Shown one piece after another: positions 41,175-48,439 of a stretch of DNA of 60,287 nucleotides. The translations under genes and the position numbers were made by a program. This DNA comes from Clostridia bacterium (GTDB lineage Bacteria; Bacillota; Clostridia; Oscillospirales; CAG-382). Numbering within the stretch: position 1 is the stretch's first letter; the number at the start of each line of letters is the position of its first letter. Below the pieces are notes generated by a model that was not told where the DNA came from, did not search any database, and worked only from the letters and a program-made list of their open reading frames with translations. The stretch lies in NCBI GenBank assembly GCA_017397805.1, contig JAFQHW010000022.1, forward strand, positions 1 through 60,287. The letters run 5' to 3'.

Positions 41175-41203
41175 TTGACAAACGGTTTTTGCTGTGATAT
41201 ACT
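41175..41203 (+). promoter_or_regulatory. Promoter of the aspS-gat T-box transcript
   Basis: TTGACA (41175-41180), 17 bases, TATACT (41198-41203), one base from consensus. The start is expected near 41210. Confidence 0.85.
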
Positions 41204-41209
41204 TTAGAA

Positions 41210-41440
41210 GTGAAGACTCGGCTTTTGTGGAAAGCTCAACAGGGATAACGCGTCATGGACTGAAAGCGCGTTTTGAGGGAGTAGTAAGTGCGGGAACACT
41301 TCACGGATACGGCATAATTTAATACAAAAAGCGGAAGCTTTTTAGCTTCAATGCGGGTGGCACCGCGGGCAAACTTTTGTTTTCTCGTCCCGAAGATACA
41401 TATTTTTCGTGTATCTTCGGGATTTTAGTTTTATATAGAG
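41210..41440 (+). promoter_or_regulatory. T-box riboswitch upstream of aspS-gatC
   Basis: The invariant T-box GGGTGGCACCGCGGG is at 41355-41369, followed by a terminator stem of 13 bp (41388-41400 with 41410-41422) and a T-rich tail (TTTTAGTTTT). The 5' part (41215-41290) has a possible short Stem I (ACTC near 41219 with GAGT near 41285) and GAGTAGTAAG. I could not assign the specifier securely: GAC (Asp) occurs in ATGGACTG and AAC (Asn) in CTCAACAGG and GATAACGCG. Either would suit a non-discriminating AspRS. It controls the whole aspS-gatA-gatB-asparaginase-alaX run by antitermination. Confidence 0.9.
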
Positions 41441-41470: not shown

Positions 41471-43546
41471 ATGTACAGAACTCTGTATTGCAACGACATA
41501 AGGGATAAGCACGTAGGGCAAAGAGTTCAGCTTGCAGGTTGGGTTGACGTTATACGCGACCACGGCGGCGTAATTTTTGTGGATATCCGTGACTATACGG
41601 GTGTTACTCAAACGGTAATCCACGACGAGGAAATGATTAAAAACGTTAACCGTGAGACCGTTATTTCCGTCAGCGGTATCGTAAGACAGCGTGACGCGGA
41701 AACGGTTAACAACAAAATAGAAACGGGTAACGTGGAGCTGGTGGTCGACGAGCTTACGGTGCTTGGTAAGTCCAAGAATATGCTGCCCTTTGACGTAAGA
41801 GGCTCCAGACAGATAAAGGACGAACTGCGCTTAAAATACCGTTATCTTGATTTGCGCAACCCCAAGAACCACGATAATCTGCTTATGCGTTCCAAGATCA
41901 TCCGTCACCTCAGAACCAAGATGGAGGGCAAGGATTTTTTGGAGATGCAAACTCCTATCCTTACCGCTTCTTCCCCCGAAGGTGCAAGGGACTTTTTGGT
42001 GCCCAGCCGTAAGCACCCAGGTAAGTTTTACGCTTTGCCTCAGGCACCTCAGCAGTTCAAACAGCTTTTGATGGTGTCGGGATTCGATAAATATTTCCAG
42101 ATAGCACCCTGCTTCCGTGATGAGGACGCAAGAGCAGACCGTTCCCCCGGTGAGTTTTATCAGCTTGACTTTGAGATGGCGTTCTCTACCCAGGAAGAAG
42201 TTTTGGATGTTTGCGAGGACGTAATTTACGATACCTTTGTAACTTTTTCCGATAAAAAAGTATCTCAAAAGCCTTTCCGACGCATAACTTATGCCGACGC
42301 GATGATGACCTACGGCTCCGATAAGCCTGATTTGAGAAATCCCCTTGTAATTTGCGATTTGACCGAGTTCTTCTCGACCGTTGATTTCCCTGCGTTTAAG
42401 GGCAGACCCGTTCGCGGTATCGTTGCCAACTGTCAGGGTAAATCCAACAAGTTTTTTGAGGATTCTCTTAAATACGCTACCTCCGACGAGGTATCCCTCG
42501 GCGGTCTTGGTTATATTACCGTTAAGGAGGGCGCGTTTATAGGTCCCATCGCCAAGTTCCTCTCCGACGAAAAGAAGGCGGAGATAGTGGCTATTACGGG
42601 CGTAAAAGAGGGCGAAACATTGTTCTTCATCTGTGACGACAGAAAGAACGATACGGAGAAGAAGGCGGGTCTTATCCGCACTTGGCTTGCAAAGAAGGAG
42701 CAGCTTGACCTTATAAAAGACGATAGCTTTGAATTCTGCTTCGTTGTGGATTTCCCCATGTACGAGATAGACGACGAAACGGGCGATACCATATTCACCC
42801 ATAACCCCTTCTCTATGCCTCAGGGCGGTATGGATTCCTTGCTTAACAAGGAGCCTACGGAGGTGCTTGCTTATCAGTATGACTTGGTTTGTAATGGTAT
42901 AGAGCTTGCATCGGGCGCCGTAAGAAACCACGATATAGACATTATGAAGAAGGCGTTTGAGATAGCAGGCTACGGTGAAGACGAGCTTAAAAAGCGCTTC
43001 AGCGCTTTGTACAACGCTTTCCAATACGGCGCACCTCCTCACGCAGGTATGGCACCCGGTATTGACCGTATGGTAATGCTTTTGACCGATGAGGAGAAGA
43101 TTCTTGAGGTTATTGCCTTCCCCCTCAACGGCAACGCTCAGGACTTGCTTTTGGGTGCCCCCGGCGAGGTTACCAATCAACAGCTTGAGGACGTACACCT
43201 TTTAGGTAACGGCAACGCCTTGGCACAGCGCGGTGGCGGTGGCGGCACCGTGGGTGAAAAGCAGGGCAAGCGCTCCACCTTCTCCAACGCTCAACAGCTT
43301 AACCAAATCGCGTTGGACGGCAAGGAAGAAGCGGTAATGCAAGGTATATTCGATATGATGAGCAAGGAAGAAGCTTTTCTTGCGGCTTTCGATACCGAAG
43401 GTGTTGAAGAGATGATATACGTAATGCCCATGACTAATATTCTGCGTGAGGACGAGAGGAAACAGTCCTTCACAAGAGATAGCTTGCTTGCGGGCGCGCC
43501 TGCCCATAACGAGGATAGCTGGCAGGTTCCCAGACTGGTTAAGTGA
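41471..43546 (+). CDS. aspS-gatC: Aspartyl-tRNA synthetase fused to GatC
   Basis: A 691-residue protein. Residues 1-580 are a bacterial AspRS: OB-fold anticodon domain (GQRVQLAGWVDVIRDHGG), motif 2 FRDEDARADRSPGEFYQLD, the GAD insertion (about 290-410), and motif 3 HAGMAPGIDRMVMLL. After the usual AspRS end (GAPGEVTNQQLEDVHLLG) and a Gly-rich linker (RGGGGGTVGEKQGK) comes a GatC-like domain of about 85 residues. Its end is diagnostic: DTEGVEEMIYVMPMTNILREDE, then SFTRDSLLAGAPAHNEDSWQVPRLVK (in two blocks). It should mischarge tRNA-Asn with Asp and dock the amidotransferase. The ATG at 41471 is 9 bases after GGAGG. gatA and gatB follow; no separate gatC is seen. Confidence 0.93.
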   Translation: MYRTLYCNDIRDKHVGQRVQLAGWVDVIRDHGGVIFVDIRDYTGVTQTVIHDEEMIKNVNRETVISVSGIVRQRDAETVNNKIETGNVELVVDELTVLGKSKNMLPFDVRGSRQIKDELRLKYRYLDLRNPKNHDNLLMRSKIIRHLRTKMEGKDFLEMQTPILTASSPEGARDFLVPSRKHPGKFYALPQAPQQFKQLLMVSGFDKYFQIAPCFRDEDARADRSPGEFYQLDFEMAFSTQEEVLDVCEDVIYDTFVTFSDKKVSQKPFRRITYADAMMTYGSDKPDLRNPLVICDLTEFFSTVDFPAFKGRPVRGIVANCQGKSNKFFEDSLKYATSDEVSLGGLGYITVKEGAFIGPIAKFLSDEKKAEIVAITGVKEGETLFFICDDRKNDTEKKAGLIRTWLAKKEQLDLIKDDSFEFCFVVDFPMYEIDDETGDTIFTHNPFSMPQGGMDSLLNKEPTEVLAYQYDLVCNGIELASGAVRNHDIDIMKKAFEIAGYGEDELKKRFSALYNAFQYGAPPHAGMAPGIDRMVMLLTDEEKILEVIAFPLNGNAQDLLLGAPGEVTNQQLEDVHLLGNGNALAQRGGGGGTVGEKQGKRSTFSNAQQLNQIALDGKEEAVMQGIFDMMSKEEAFLAAFDTEGVEEMIYVMPMTNILREDERKQSFTRDSLLAGAPAHNEDSWQVPRLVK

Positions 43547-43556
43547 GGTGTGTGCA

Positions 43557-44741
43557 ATGAAATACTATACGACGATAATAAACGAAAAGGGTAATATAGC
43601 CGTTGACGATACCATTCTCGTCAAGGACGTGGATGCAACGGCGGGCTCTTATATGTTAGAGGGCTTTAAGCCTCTCTTCAGCGCGGAAGCGGTTACACGC
43701 TTGGAAAATAGCGGTTACACCTTGTCAGGCAAGGCAACCGTTGGTGAGTTCGGACTTGATTTGGTAGGCGAGTTTTCTCATTACGGTGAGGAAGCGAAGG
43801 AGCTTTTCGGCGCTTCTGCGGCTCTCGTGGCAAAGGGCGAGGTAGAGGGCGCTTTAGGAGTGGACGTAAACGGTTCCCCCAGAAGAGCCGCCGCTCTTGC
43901 CGGGGTTGACTTTTTAAAGCCTACTTACGGTACCGTATCCCGTTACGGTATTATTTCCACCGCTGCCTCCGGCGAGCAGTTGGGTGTTTACGCAAAGGAT
44001 GCGGAGGGTGTTGCCAAGCTGATGACGGTAATCGCCGGTCACGACAGCAAGGACGGCACCAGCTTGTCTGCGGAAAAATACGAGTATTCGGTAAACGAAG
44101 ATATAAAAGGCAAAAAGGTCTGCATAATCAAACAGCTTTTGGATAAAGCCGACGACGGAGTAAAAACTGCCGTTAACGCCTACGCCGAAAAGCTTAAAGC
44201 CAACGGAGTGACGGTTGAAGAAGTGTCTGAGGATATTTTTGACGGTGCAAACGTAGCTTGGCAGATTTTGATGTCTGCGGAAAGCTGTAACAATATTTCC
44301 CGCTATGACGGCGTAAAATACGGTCACCGCAGTGAAAACTACAGAAATATTGACGAGCTTTACGTTAATTCCAGAACGGAGGGCTTTAACTTCCTGACGA
44401 AGGCGGTTATACTTTACGGTTCCGACGTTCTTTCCAAAAACCGCTATAAGACTTGCTACGATAAGTCGTTAAAGGTTCGCCGTTTGGTTAAGAATAAGCT
44501 TGACGAGCTTATGAGCAAATACGATGCGATTTTAACACCCGCTTGCAGTAAGACGGCTTATGAAAGCTATGGCATCGACGGCGCTTTCCAAAAAGTGTAT
44601 GAAGAAAGCGTGTTTACGGCTGTTCCCAACCTTATAGGCATCCCCGCTTTGGTAAGCGGCGGCGTTCAGCTTATGGGTGATCATTTCAGCGAAAGCTTGC
44701 TTTTAAGCATGGCGCATTCTGCGGAAAAGGAGGGTAAATAA
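43557..44741 (+). CDS. gatA: Shortened, degenerate GatA amidotransferase subunit
   Basis: A 394-residue GatA homologue, about 90 residues shorter than usual. It begins almost at the catalytic Lys block (DTILVKDVDATAG, Lys23), lacking the usual 60-70-residue N-terminal region. GKATVGEFGLD replaces GKTNMDEFAMG. The GSSGGSAAAVA amidase signature is reduced to LFGASAALVA (83-92), so the cis-Ser is absent. The nucleophile-type Ser is kept in VNGSPRRAA (Ser107). LKPTYGTVSRYGI and VIAGHDSKDGTS are clear GatA blocks, and the C-terminus is full. The upstream DNA is occupied by the GatC domain in another frame and encodes no lost N-terminus, so this is not a recent frameshift. It may have weak or no glutaminase activity. 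Confidence 0.85.
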   Translation: MKYYTTIINEKGNIAVDDTILVKDVDATAGSYMLEGFKPLFSAEAVTRLENSGYTLSGKATVGEFGLDLVGEFSHYGEEAKELFGASAALVAKGEVEGALGVDVNGSPRRAAALAGVDFLKPTYGTVSRYGIISTAASGEQLGVYAKDAEGVAKLMTVIAGHDSKDGTSLSAEKYEYSVNEDIKGKKVCIIKQLLDKADDGVKTAVNAYAEKLKANGVTVEEVSEDIFDGANVAWQILMSAESCNNISRYDGVKYGHRSENYRNIDELYVNSRTEGFNFLTKAVILYGSDVLSKNRYKTCYDKSLKVRRLVKNKLDELMSKYDAILTPACSKTAYESYGIDGAFQKVYEESVFTAVPNLIGIPALVSGGVQLMGDHFSESLLLSMAHSAEKEGK

Positions 44742-46185: not shown

Positions 46186-47268
46186 ATGAAGAATGTTTTG
46201 CTTATTCTTGTGGGCGGCACTATTTGTACCGCTAACGAGAATAACGTGCTGTCGATAACCAAAGATTCGGGCGCGGTGATAAGAGATAATTATTTGAGCT
46301 CCGATTCTGCCTGTGTTGGGAAGGTCAATATAGATTTAAGCGAAAACCTTCTTACACTAAGCGAAAATATGACGGTGGACAAATGGAACCTTATCATAGA
46401 CCTCTACCGAAAAACGGTAATAAAGGGCAAATATGACGGCGTTATATTTGCCCACGGAACGGATAGCCTTGCCTATTCTTCCTCCTTGTTTTCGTTTTTG
46501 CTGGCGGATACGGACGTCCCCGTTTTCTTCGTTTCCGCTAACGAGAATCTAAGTTCCGAACGTTCTAACGGAAACGCAAACTTTGCTTGCGCCGTTGAGT
46601 GTATTTGTTACGGTATAAGTCCCAACGTTTACGTGCCTTACAAAAATTTGTCCGACGGTAAGATGTATTTGCACTTAGGCTCTCGGTTGGAGCAGTGCAA
46701 AAATTACTCGGAGGATTTTTACAGTGTAGGTGCAGTTTGGGTGGAGGATCATTCGGAGAAGGCTTATAAAAACGCCTTTGCTTTGATAGACGAAAAATAT
46801 CCCCAAAGCGGCAAAAATCCCATGGTCGGTCTTTATAACTGCAAAAATCTTGAGGATTGCGTGCTGATGCTGGAGCCTTACGTGGGACTTAGATACGATT
46901 GCTTTGATTATGCGAAGTTCCGCGCGGTTTTGCACGGCACCTATCATTCGGGCACTGCTTGCGCAGAAAAAAGCCGTTGGTATGCCGACTACGGAAGAAA
47001 CTCTTTGCTTTATATGCTTGACGAGTGTGCTGAAAAAAGCAAGGACACGGATATATATTTGTCCCCGTCCCGTCTTGAGGGAGAGGTGTACGAAACTTTG
47101 CCCATTATCGCCAACCACGGAAAAGCGGAAAAAAGGCTTAGTTTTTTGTACGGTCAAACCAAGGAGGCAAGCTACGCAAAGCTTGTAATAGCCTACAGCG
47201 TTTTTGCCGACAAAGAGGATATAAAACGTTTTTTGGATACGAATATAAATTTTGAAAACATACATTAG
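46186..47268 (+). CDS. Asparaginase family protein (divergent)
   Basis: A 360-residue cytoplasmic protein of the type I/II L-asparaginase fold. Both nucleophile motifs are present: ILVGGTICTANENN (first Thr) and VIFAHGTDSLAYSSSL (Thr-Asp pair). The region where the catalytic Lys normally sits (RGNRxxK) reads LGSRLEQ, so Lys appears replaced by Gln. The C-terminal domain is recognisable (VLHGTYHSGTAC, IYLSPSRLEGEVYET). It lies 23 bases after gatB in the T-box operon, a context that recalls archaeal GatD, the asparaginase-fold ammonia donor of GatDE. It may instead simply hydrolyse Asn, or be inactive. The alignment of the Lys site was done by eye. Confidence 0.75.
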   Translation: MKNVLLILVGGTICTANENNVLSITKDSGAVIRDNYLSSDSACVGKVNIDLSENLLTLSENMTVDKWNLIIDLYRKTVIKGKYDGVIFAHGTDSLAYSSSLFSFLLADTDVPVFFVSANENLSSERSNGNANFACAVECICYGISPNVYVPYKNLSDGKMYLHLGSRLEQCKNYSEDFYSVGAVWVEDHSEKAYKNAFALIDEKYPQSGKNPMVGLYNCKNLEDCVLMLEPYVGLRYDCFDYAKFRAVLHGTYHSGTACAEKSRWYADYGRNSLLYMLDECAEKSKDTDIYLSPSRLEGEVYETLPIIANHGKAEKRLSFLYGQTKEASYAKLVIAYSVFADKEDIKRFLDTNINFENIH

Positions 47269-47287: not shown

Positions 47288-48439
47288 ATGACGAAATTGC
47301 TATACGAGCAGGATGCATATATAAAAAACTTTGAGGCAAAGGTACTGTCCTGCGATGAAGCAGAGGGCGGTTATGCCGTTGTTTTGGATCAAAGCGCTTT
47401 CTTCCCCGAAGGCGGCGGTCAAAAGGGCGACGTGGGCAGAATAGGTGATGCGACGGTAAGTGATACTCAGCTTGTGGGCGACACCGTGGTGCATAGCGTG
47501 GATAAACCCTTAGAGGTTGGCAGCAAGGTAGAAGCCGCAATAGATTGGGAGATACGCTTTGAGAGGATGCAAAACCATTCCGCAGAGCATATAATTTGCG
47601 GTATAGCCTGGTCGTTGTTTGGTTGCAATAACGTGGGTTTCCATATGGGTGAGAGCTTTATGACGGTGGATCTGGACGGCAAGCTCAGCAAAGAGGAGCT
47701 AAGCCGTGTGGAGCTGGAGGCAAACCGCGCCGTTTACAGAAATCTACCCATAGTTTCCATATATCCCACCAAAGAGGAAGCGGAAAGCCTTCAGTACAGA
47801 AGCAAAAAGGCTATAGACGAGGGTTTGCGCCTGGTAAAAATAGGTGACGTGGACTGCTGTGCTTGCTGTGCGCCCCACGTGGCTCAAACGGGGGAGATAG
47901 GTGTAATCAAGGTGATTGACTTCTGTCCTCACAAAAACGGTGTAAGAATTCAGCTTATAGCCGGCCGGGATGCTTTTAGCGACTACGTGGCGTTAAACGA
48001 AAGAAATAAGGCTGTAATGAAGCTGTTGTCTGCACCGAGAGAGGGCGTGCCTTCGGCGGTTGAAGCGCTTTTGGATACTATCGCTCGCCTGAACGGCGAG
48101 AAACAAGCCATAGCACGGGAGCTTGCCATATGTAAGCTTAACCCTACCGTAAAAGAAAAAAACGCTTTTGCGTTTTGTGATAATTGCAGCTTTGAGGATT
48201 TACGTCATTGCTCCAACAAGCTGATAAGCGACGGTATAGACCATTGCCTTTTGTTCTCACAAAGCGGAGATAATGAGTATATCTACGTGGTAAACAGCGC
48301 GAAAGGTGAGGCAAGAGCCGTTGTAAAAGCTCTTAACGACGCTTTGGGCGGCAAAGGCGGCGGCAAAGATAATTATGCGCAAGGCAAGGTCTGCGGTACC
48401 CGCTCAGAGGTAGAAGCTCTTGCGGAAAGCTTGATTTAG
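47288..48439 (+). CDS. Alanyl-tRNA editing protein AlaX with DHHA1 domain
   Basis: A 383-residue trans-editing factor related to the editing half of AlaRS, which removes Ser or Gly from tRNA-Ala. Zinc ligands are visible in QNHSAEHIICG (HxxxH) and DCCACCAPHVAQTGEIG (Cys and His). A Gly-rich FFPEGGGQKGD loop is at the N-terminus. The C-terminal 100 residues resemble a DHHA1 domain (EARAVVKALNDALGGKGGG). It is 19 bases after the asparaginase-like gene and is the last gene before the terminator, so it shares the aspS T-box control. Confidence 0.9.
   Translation: MTKLLYEQDAYIKNFEAKVLSCDEAEGGYAVVLDQSAFFPEGGGQKGDVGRIGDATVSDTQLVGDTVVHSVDKPLEVGSKVEAAIDWEIRFERMQNHSAEHIICGIAWSLFGCNNVGFHMGESFMTVDLDGKLSKEELSRVELEANRAVYRNLPIVSIYPTKEEAESLQYRSKKAIDEGLRLVKIGDVDCCACCAPHVAQTGEIGVIKVIDFCPHKNGVRIQLIAGRDAFSDYVALNERNKAVMKLLSAPREGVPSAVEALLDTIARLNGEKQAIARELAICKLNPTVKEKNAFAFCDNCSFEDLRHCSNKLISDGIDHCLLFSQSGDNEYIYVVNSAKGEARAVVKALNDALGGKGGGKDNYAQGKVCGTRSEVEALAESLI

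Follow-up and report, generated by a model that had tools for sequence, protein, structure and literature searches.

A GatA without its catalytic triad in a conserved AspRS-GatC, GatA, GatB cassette that apparently replaces AsnRS and AsnA in gut Clostridia

In all tRNA-dependent amidotransferases that we know of, a subunit of the enzyme itself, either GatA or GatD, releases the nitrogen by splitting an amide. The stretch of DNA analysed here, 60,287 nucleotides from a Clostridia bacterium (GCA_017397805.1, contig JAFQHW010000022.1; the whole stretch is referred to as the window), carries a gatA of reduced length next to gatB. The locus raises the question of whether such a GatA can still generate ammonia and, if it cannot, where the nitrogen for amidation comes from. 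The features of the locus are as follows; the short gatA is designated gatA* and its product GatA*.

41199-41395, + strand: T-box leader, with the specifier AAC (Asn) at 41295-41297 and the motif GGGTGGCACCGC at 41355-41366
41389-41426, + strand: intrinsic T-box terminator, with the hairpin CCCGAAGATAC...GTATCTTCGGG and a T-run after it, recognised from the sequence itself
41471-43546, + strand: aspS2-gatC fusion, encoding an AspRS with His at the H31 position and a C-terminal GatC domain (about 43277-43540)
43557-44741, + strand: gatA*, encoding a GatA without N-terminus, catalytic triad and glutamine-binding residues
44744-46162, + strand: gatB, transamidase subunit (TIGR00133, 500 bits; PF02934, 376 bits)
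46186-47268, + strand: asparaginase-like ORF, a possible partner (PF00710, 79.5 bits)
47288-48439, + strand: AlaX-like alanyl-tRNA editing ORF

The gatA* frame is clean and encodes 394 residues. Its product matches the Pfam Amidase profile PF01425 with 189 bits (cut-off 27) over profile positions 52-445 of 445, about 55 N-terminal residues being absent, and scores 267.4 bits with the NCBIfam gatA profile TIGR00132, under the curated cut-off of 481.1. Among PDB entries, GatA subunits are its closest relatives in sequence (2df4, E 4e-57). A structure model of the protein (pLDDT 91.8) matched GatA 2df4_A best, with Z 50.8 over 391 residues, and the fold is fully kept. A sequence-only reading of this DNA had described a GatA missing its N-terminus, with no part of it hidden upstream, and both points were borne out. 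Immediately upstream lies the 3' end of the AspRS-GatC ORF, with its stop at 43546, and close relatives are equally short; a frameshift or a hidden N-terminus 5' of gatA* was thus ruled out. The same reading had proposed a search for a second gatA. A search of the window's genome (88.7% complete) gave no amidase besides GatA*, which speaks against the case of one defective GatA copy beside a good one.

The active-site residues were mapped by alignment to the solved S. aureus GatA (2df4). The catalytic Lys79 aligns ungapped with Asp17 of the window protein, cis-Ser154 falls in a gap with Ser155 at Phe84, so that the cis-Ser has been either deleted or replaced by Leu, and the nucleophile Ser178 corresponds to Ser107. 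At the glutamine-binding positions Tyr309 is replaced by Trp235, Arg358 by Val284 and Asp425 by Ser351, and the Arg and Asp are lost across the whole GatA* clade. The Glu beside the glutamine-binding Arg, invariant in canonical GatA, is also lost (Leu280). A Glu-Arg pair, E330 and R334, is found at the glutamine site of the yeast enzyme (PMC4027206). Within the clade, the position of the catalytic Lys is occupied by Asp in 65 and Glu in 2 of 67 rows and never by Lys. The cis-Ser position holds Leu (60), Ile (4) or Ala (1), with Ser in 0 of 65 rows, and the nucleophile position Ala (31), Ser (23), Thr (8) or other residues (4). The 39 canonical GatA sequences have Lys, Ser and Ser at these positions without exception. 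The cis-Ser is therefore gone, as had been read from the sequence, and mapping of the triad onto a characterised GatA placed no Ser there. Lys23, which had been taken for the remaining catalytic Lys, lies six residues beyond the position of that Lys and pairs with the second Lys of KDNICTKG, and the assignment had to be given up. Ser107 does remain at the nucleophile position in the window, although Ser is not conserved there in the subfamily (23 of 66 rows). With losses at the Lys and the cis-Ser and a Ser that is not conserved, the triad has been lost across the clade rather than modified at one position. The earlier suggestion of a GatA working with a modified triad is contradicted by these losses, together with those of the glutamine-binding Arg and Asp.

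At about twenty positions GatA* has an invariant or almost invariant residue that differs from the one in canonical GatA. These positions include Asp17, Asp68, Asn105, Arg110, Trp235, Cys244, Asn245 and Glu350, and several of them replace or adjoin triad or glutamine-holding positions. Asp17, Asn105, Cys244 and Asn245 are 97-100% invariant in GatA* and absent or almost absent from canonical GatA; with Glu350 they make up a new invariant residue set of the clade. Judged from the aligned sequences, the pocket looks remodelled rather than decayed, and the glutaminase site appears to have been dismantled and re-specialised.

The comparison set consisted of 60-61 related genomes (G000-G059), taken as 8 carriers and 52 others. 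A short GatA of 381-398 residues, with the gene order aspS, gatC, gatA, gatB, was present in the 8 carriers, the window's genome included. Scanning of genome contigs yielded 58 further loci with more than about 40% identity, nearly all from MAGs of gut or rumen Clostridia, and the order aspS, gatC, gatA*, gatB was the same at every one of them where the contig was long enough. The clade thus comprises more than 60 sequences, mostly intact ORFs. Its split from canonical GatA received an SH-aLRT of 99, with the placement of one 293-residue row (G041) unsure. For close gatA* pairs dN/dS was 0.06-0.18, above GatB and clearly purifying. This large conserved clade, the replacement of AsnRS and AsnA described below and the AspRS-GatC fusion behind a T-box all go beyond the earlier reading.

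Some loci depart from the common arrangement. The 293-residue GatA lies in an aspS-gatC-gatA-gatB cassette (L095, 6860-7738, - strand; G041) in a genome that has AsnRS. An orphan ORF resembling GatC fused to a degenerate GatA, with no gatB alongside, was seen in G037 (L097, 7335-8441, - strand). At L121, L124 and L125, gatA*-gatB is followed in tandem by a full-length gatA-gatB, plus an asparaginase-like gene.

The statement that GatB is intact was upheld. In the window and nearly all carriers, gatC, gatA and gatB form an operon with an intact GatB kinase/transamidase site. His12, Glu125, Glu151, Asn193 and Ser195, which are Mg- and ATP-site residues, are kept in GatB of the GatA* cassettes, as are 83 of 112 canonical-invariant columns. 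Since these residues are retained, amidation by the cassette GatB should work.

The aspS2-gatC product scores 602 bits with TIGR00459 and 31 bits with PF02686; with TIGR00135 it reaches 40 bits, under the cut-off of 47.1. In all 47 cassette AspRS sequences compared, position H31 in the anticodon-binding domain is occupied by His, the signature of a non-discriminating AspRS, versus Leu in the AspRS1 of five carriers (G000, G005, G046, G047 and G059). The cassette AspRS2 is accordingly predicted to be of the non-discriminating type for tRNA(Asn). Upstream of it, the leader in the window matches Rfam RF00230 with 43.2 bits (E 3e-8 in a search of 601 bases), below the gathering score of 93 bits that is reached by the leaders in G011, G047 and G005. 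Despite this score the leader was assigned as a T-box because of its T-box motif, its terminator and its AAC specifier. The Asn specifier AAC occurs at the same place in 33 of 35 readable T-boxes upstream of cassette aspS. By a simple pattern no T-box motif was seen in 13 of 51 upstream stretches; Rfam nevertheless finds one in G011. The T-box leaders upstream of aspS at L152 and L154 deviate from the common specifier pattern.

The carriers differ from their relatives in the enzymes for asparagine. AsnRS is absent from 8/8 carriers versus 9/52 other genomes (Fisher 1e-5), and AsnA from 8/8 versus 11/52 (3e-5); the genomes are not independent and both p values are indicative. Among 50 further carrier genomes AsnRS was below the cut-off in 46 and present in 4. 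Nearly all carriers are MAGs, and any single absence of a gene could be a gap in the assembly. The alternation is also seen within single genera. In one of these, G000 and G005 have the cassette and neither AsnRS nor AsnA, whereas G001-G004 have both enzymes and no cassette; the same holds for carrier G019 versus G007 and carrier G011 versus G023. GlnRS is present in 7/8 carriers, and G046, the one without it, has a full GatCAB in addition to the cassette. The cassette therefore serves Asn and not Gln, and most carriers apparently have no other route to Asn-tRNA(Asn).

Apart from GatA*, no amidase was found in 7/8 carriers, nor in about two thirds of the 50 further ones, so the nitrogen must come from elsewhere. 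About a third of those 50 have a full GatA elsewhere, which could act in trans, and an AsnB-type gene is present in the window's genome. Of the two alternatives offered by the sequence-only reading, ammonia from another source is thus better supported than a modified triad.

We consider it likely that the genes form a dedicated cassette in which AspRS2 and GatC/GatA*/GatB amidate Asp-tRNA(Asn) with ammonia that GatA does not make, most likely free ammonium. The non-discriminating, GatC-fused AspRS2 would charge tRNA(Asn) with Asp, and a complex of GatB, GatC and GatA* would convert Asp-tRNA(Asn) to Asn-tRNA(Asn). GatA* has probably been retained as the structural half of this complex, where it would also form the entrance through which ammonia reaches GatB. 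With the glutaminase absent, we infer that the nitrogen is most likely free ammonium present in the gut or rumen, ammonia being used rather than glutamine, as by AsnA. Free ammonium would be the simplest source by analogy: AsnA of close relatives makes Asn from ammonia, and GatFAB amidates with NH4Cl, trimming of the GatF N-terminal domain giving less use of Gln and more of NH4Cl (PMC4027206). The Asn-specific T-box would turn the cassette on when tRNA(Asn) is uncharged. As the only route to Asn-tRNA(Asn) in most carriers, the cassette should be essential where it is the sole one.

A more specific form of this proposal is put forward tentatively. The former glutaminase pocket of GatA* may be a gate that captures or deprotonates ammonium by means of Asp17, Asn105, Cys244, Asn245 and Glu350 and feeds the GatB tunnel. 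The cassette might then be an ammonium-dependent amidotransferase that has replaced AsnRS and AsnA in gut Clostridia.

The asparaginase-like ORF offers a different donor, in that its product could split Asn or Gln and hand NH3 to GatB, as archaeal GatD does for GatE. The gene directly follows gatB in the window, and at 17 of the 58 other loci one is found near the cassette, on either strand. Members of the close subfamily were found in 4/8 GatA* carriers and in none of the other genomes. Among PDB sequences the protein matches GatD 2d6f best, and its Thr12, Ser59, Thr92 and Asp93 are invariant. The matches are weak, however: 49.6 bits to 2d6f, 70-76 bits to the GatD profiles against cut-offs of 310-324, and 92 bits to TIGR00519, under its cut-off of 260.5. 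About two thirds of the loci have no nearby copy, and place and strand vary. The catalytic Lys, which in E. coli asparaginase belongs to the T89-K162-D90 triad (PMC8460627), is Gln in 20/20 cassette-linked copies, while ordinary asparaginases of other relatives keep it. This replacement in all 20 copies makes a GatD-like role as donor unlikely. Such a role is not favoured, and the protein may instead bind Asn or act in salvage. Distant asparaginase-like relatives without the Lys (Pro, Leu or Asn in its place) were also seen in G050, G011 and G016, all without AsnRS. The AlaX-like ORF adjoins the cassette in 9 of the 58 other loci, and its link to the amidation system is uncertain. Clustering of the flanking ORFs gave no ammonium transporter or other glutaminase as a recurring neighbour of the cassette; those that recurred otherwise were antisense ORFs and an AraC-like gene.

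GatA* itself could make ammonia from Gln, Asn or another amide through a rebuilt site, for example Cys244 with Asp17, Asn105 and Asn245. The near-complete invariance of these residues, their virtual absence from canonical GatA, a pocket that appears remodelled and not decayed and the fully retained fold would all agree with this. However, the glutamine-binding Arg, Asp and Glu have been lost together, and we know of no amidase-signature enzyme with a residue set of this type. We regard such an activity as improbable. That the cassette is a decaying remnant, with gatA* a pseudogene on its way out and Asn-tRNA made otherwise, is strongly disfavoured: a shortened GatA without the known catalytic residues, AsnRS in 4/50 carriers and the 293-residue GatA beside AsnRS in G041 would fit, but a single clade of over 60 ORFs, most of them intact, with dN/dS of 0.06-0.18 and invariant residues, an intact GatB and the lack of AsnRS in 8/8 and 46/50 carriers do not.

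The ammonium-fed cassette that we favour resembles several known systems. With bacterial GatCAB (S. aureus, 2df4; the P. aeruginosa asparagine transamidosome, 4wj3) it shares the GatA fold (Z 50.8 and 49.6), the gatC-gatA-gatB operon, the catalytic residues of GatB and an AspRS partner. It differs in that about 55 residues are missing from the start of GatA*, together with Lys79, cis-Ser154 and the glutamine-binding Tyr309, Arg358 and Asp425, in a nucleophile Ser that is not conserved and in the new invariant residue set. C. acetobutylicum also has AsnRS, whereas most GatA* carriers do not. According to Saad 2012, as related in PMC4206432, the tRNA-dependent amidation that provides Asn and Asn-tRNA(Asn) is under T-box control in that species, a likeness within Clostridia as far as that account goes. 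The AspRS-GatC fusion protein NF009460 (NCBIfam) has the same bifunctional layout and belongs to another lineage, the window protein scoring 464 bits against its cut-off of 1379. In archaeal GatDE the GatB homologue GatE is fed by the asparaginase-family subunit GatD. The window cassette differs in keeping GatC and GatA*, and its asparaginase-like protein differs from GatD in lacking the catalytic Lys, in a shorter N-terminus and in not always being present. AsnA makes the same amide from free ammonia and is absent where GatA* is present among the relatives searched; unlike the cassette it yields free Asn, which needs AsnRS, and the two are unrelated in sequence.

No earlier description of a GatA lacking the triad was found in the open-access literature; one may exist in a subscription journal. 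To our knowledge, no enzyme has been described of the kind that these uncultured gut bacteria apparently use for all their Asn-tRNA, an amidotransferase with a GatA stripped of its catalytic and glutamine-binding residues. If the proposed function is correct, the cassette would represent a natural separation of transamidase from glutaminase, in which the dismantled subunit is still under selection and the clade depends on the complex for its asparagine codons. It would offer a test of the need for the ammonia tunnel, of the capacity of free ammonium to support translation and of the exchange of AsnA and AsnRS for one cassette within a genus.
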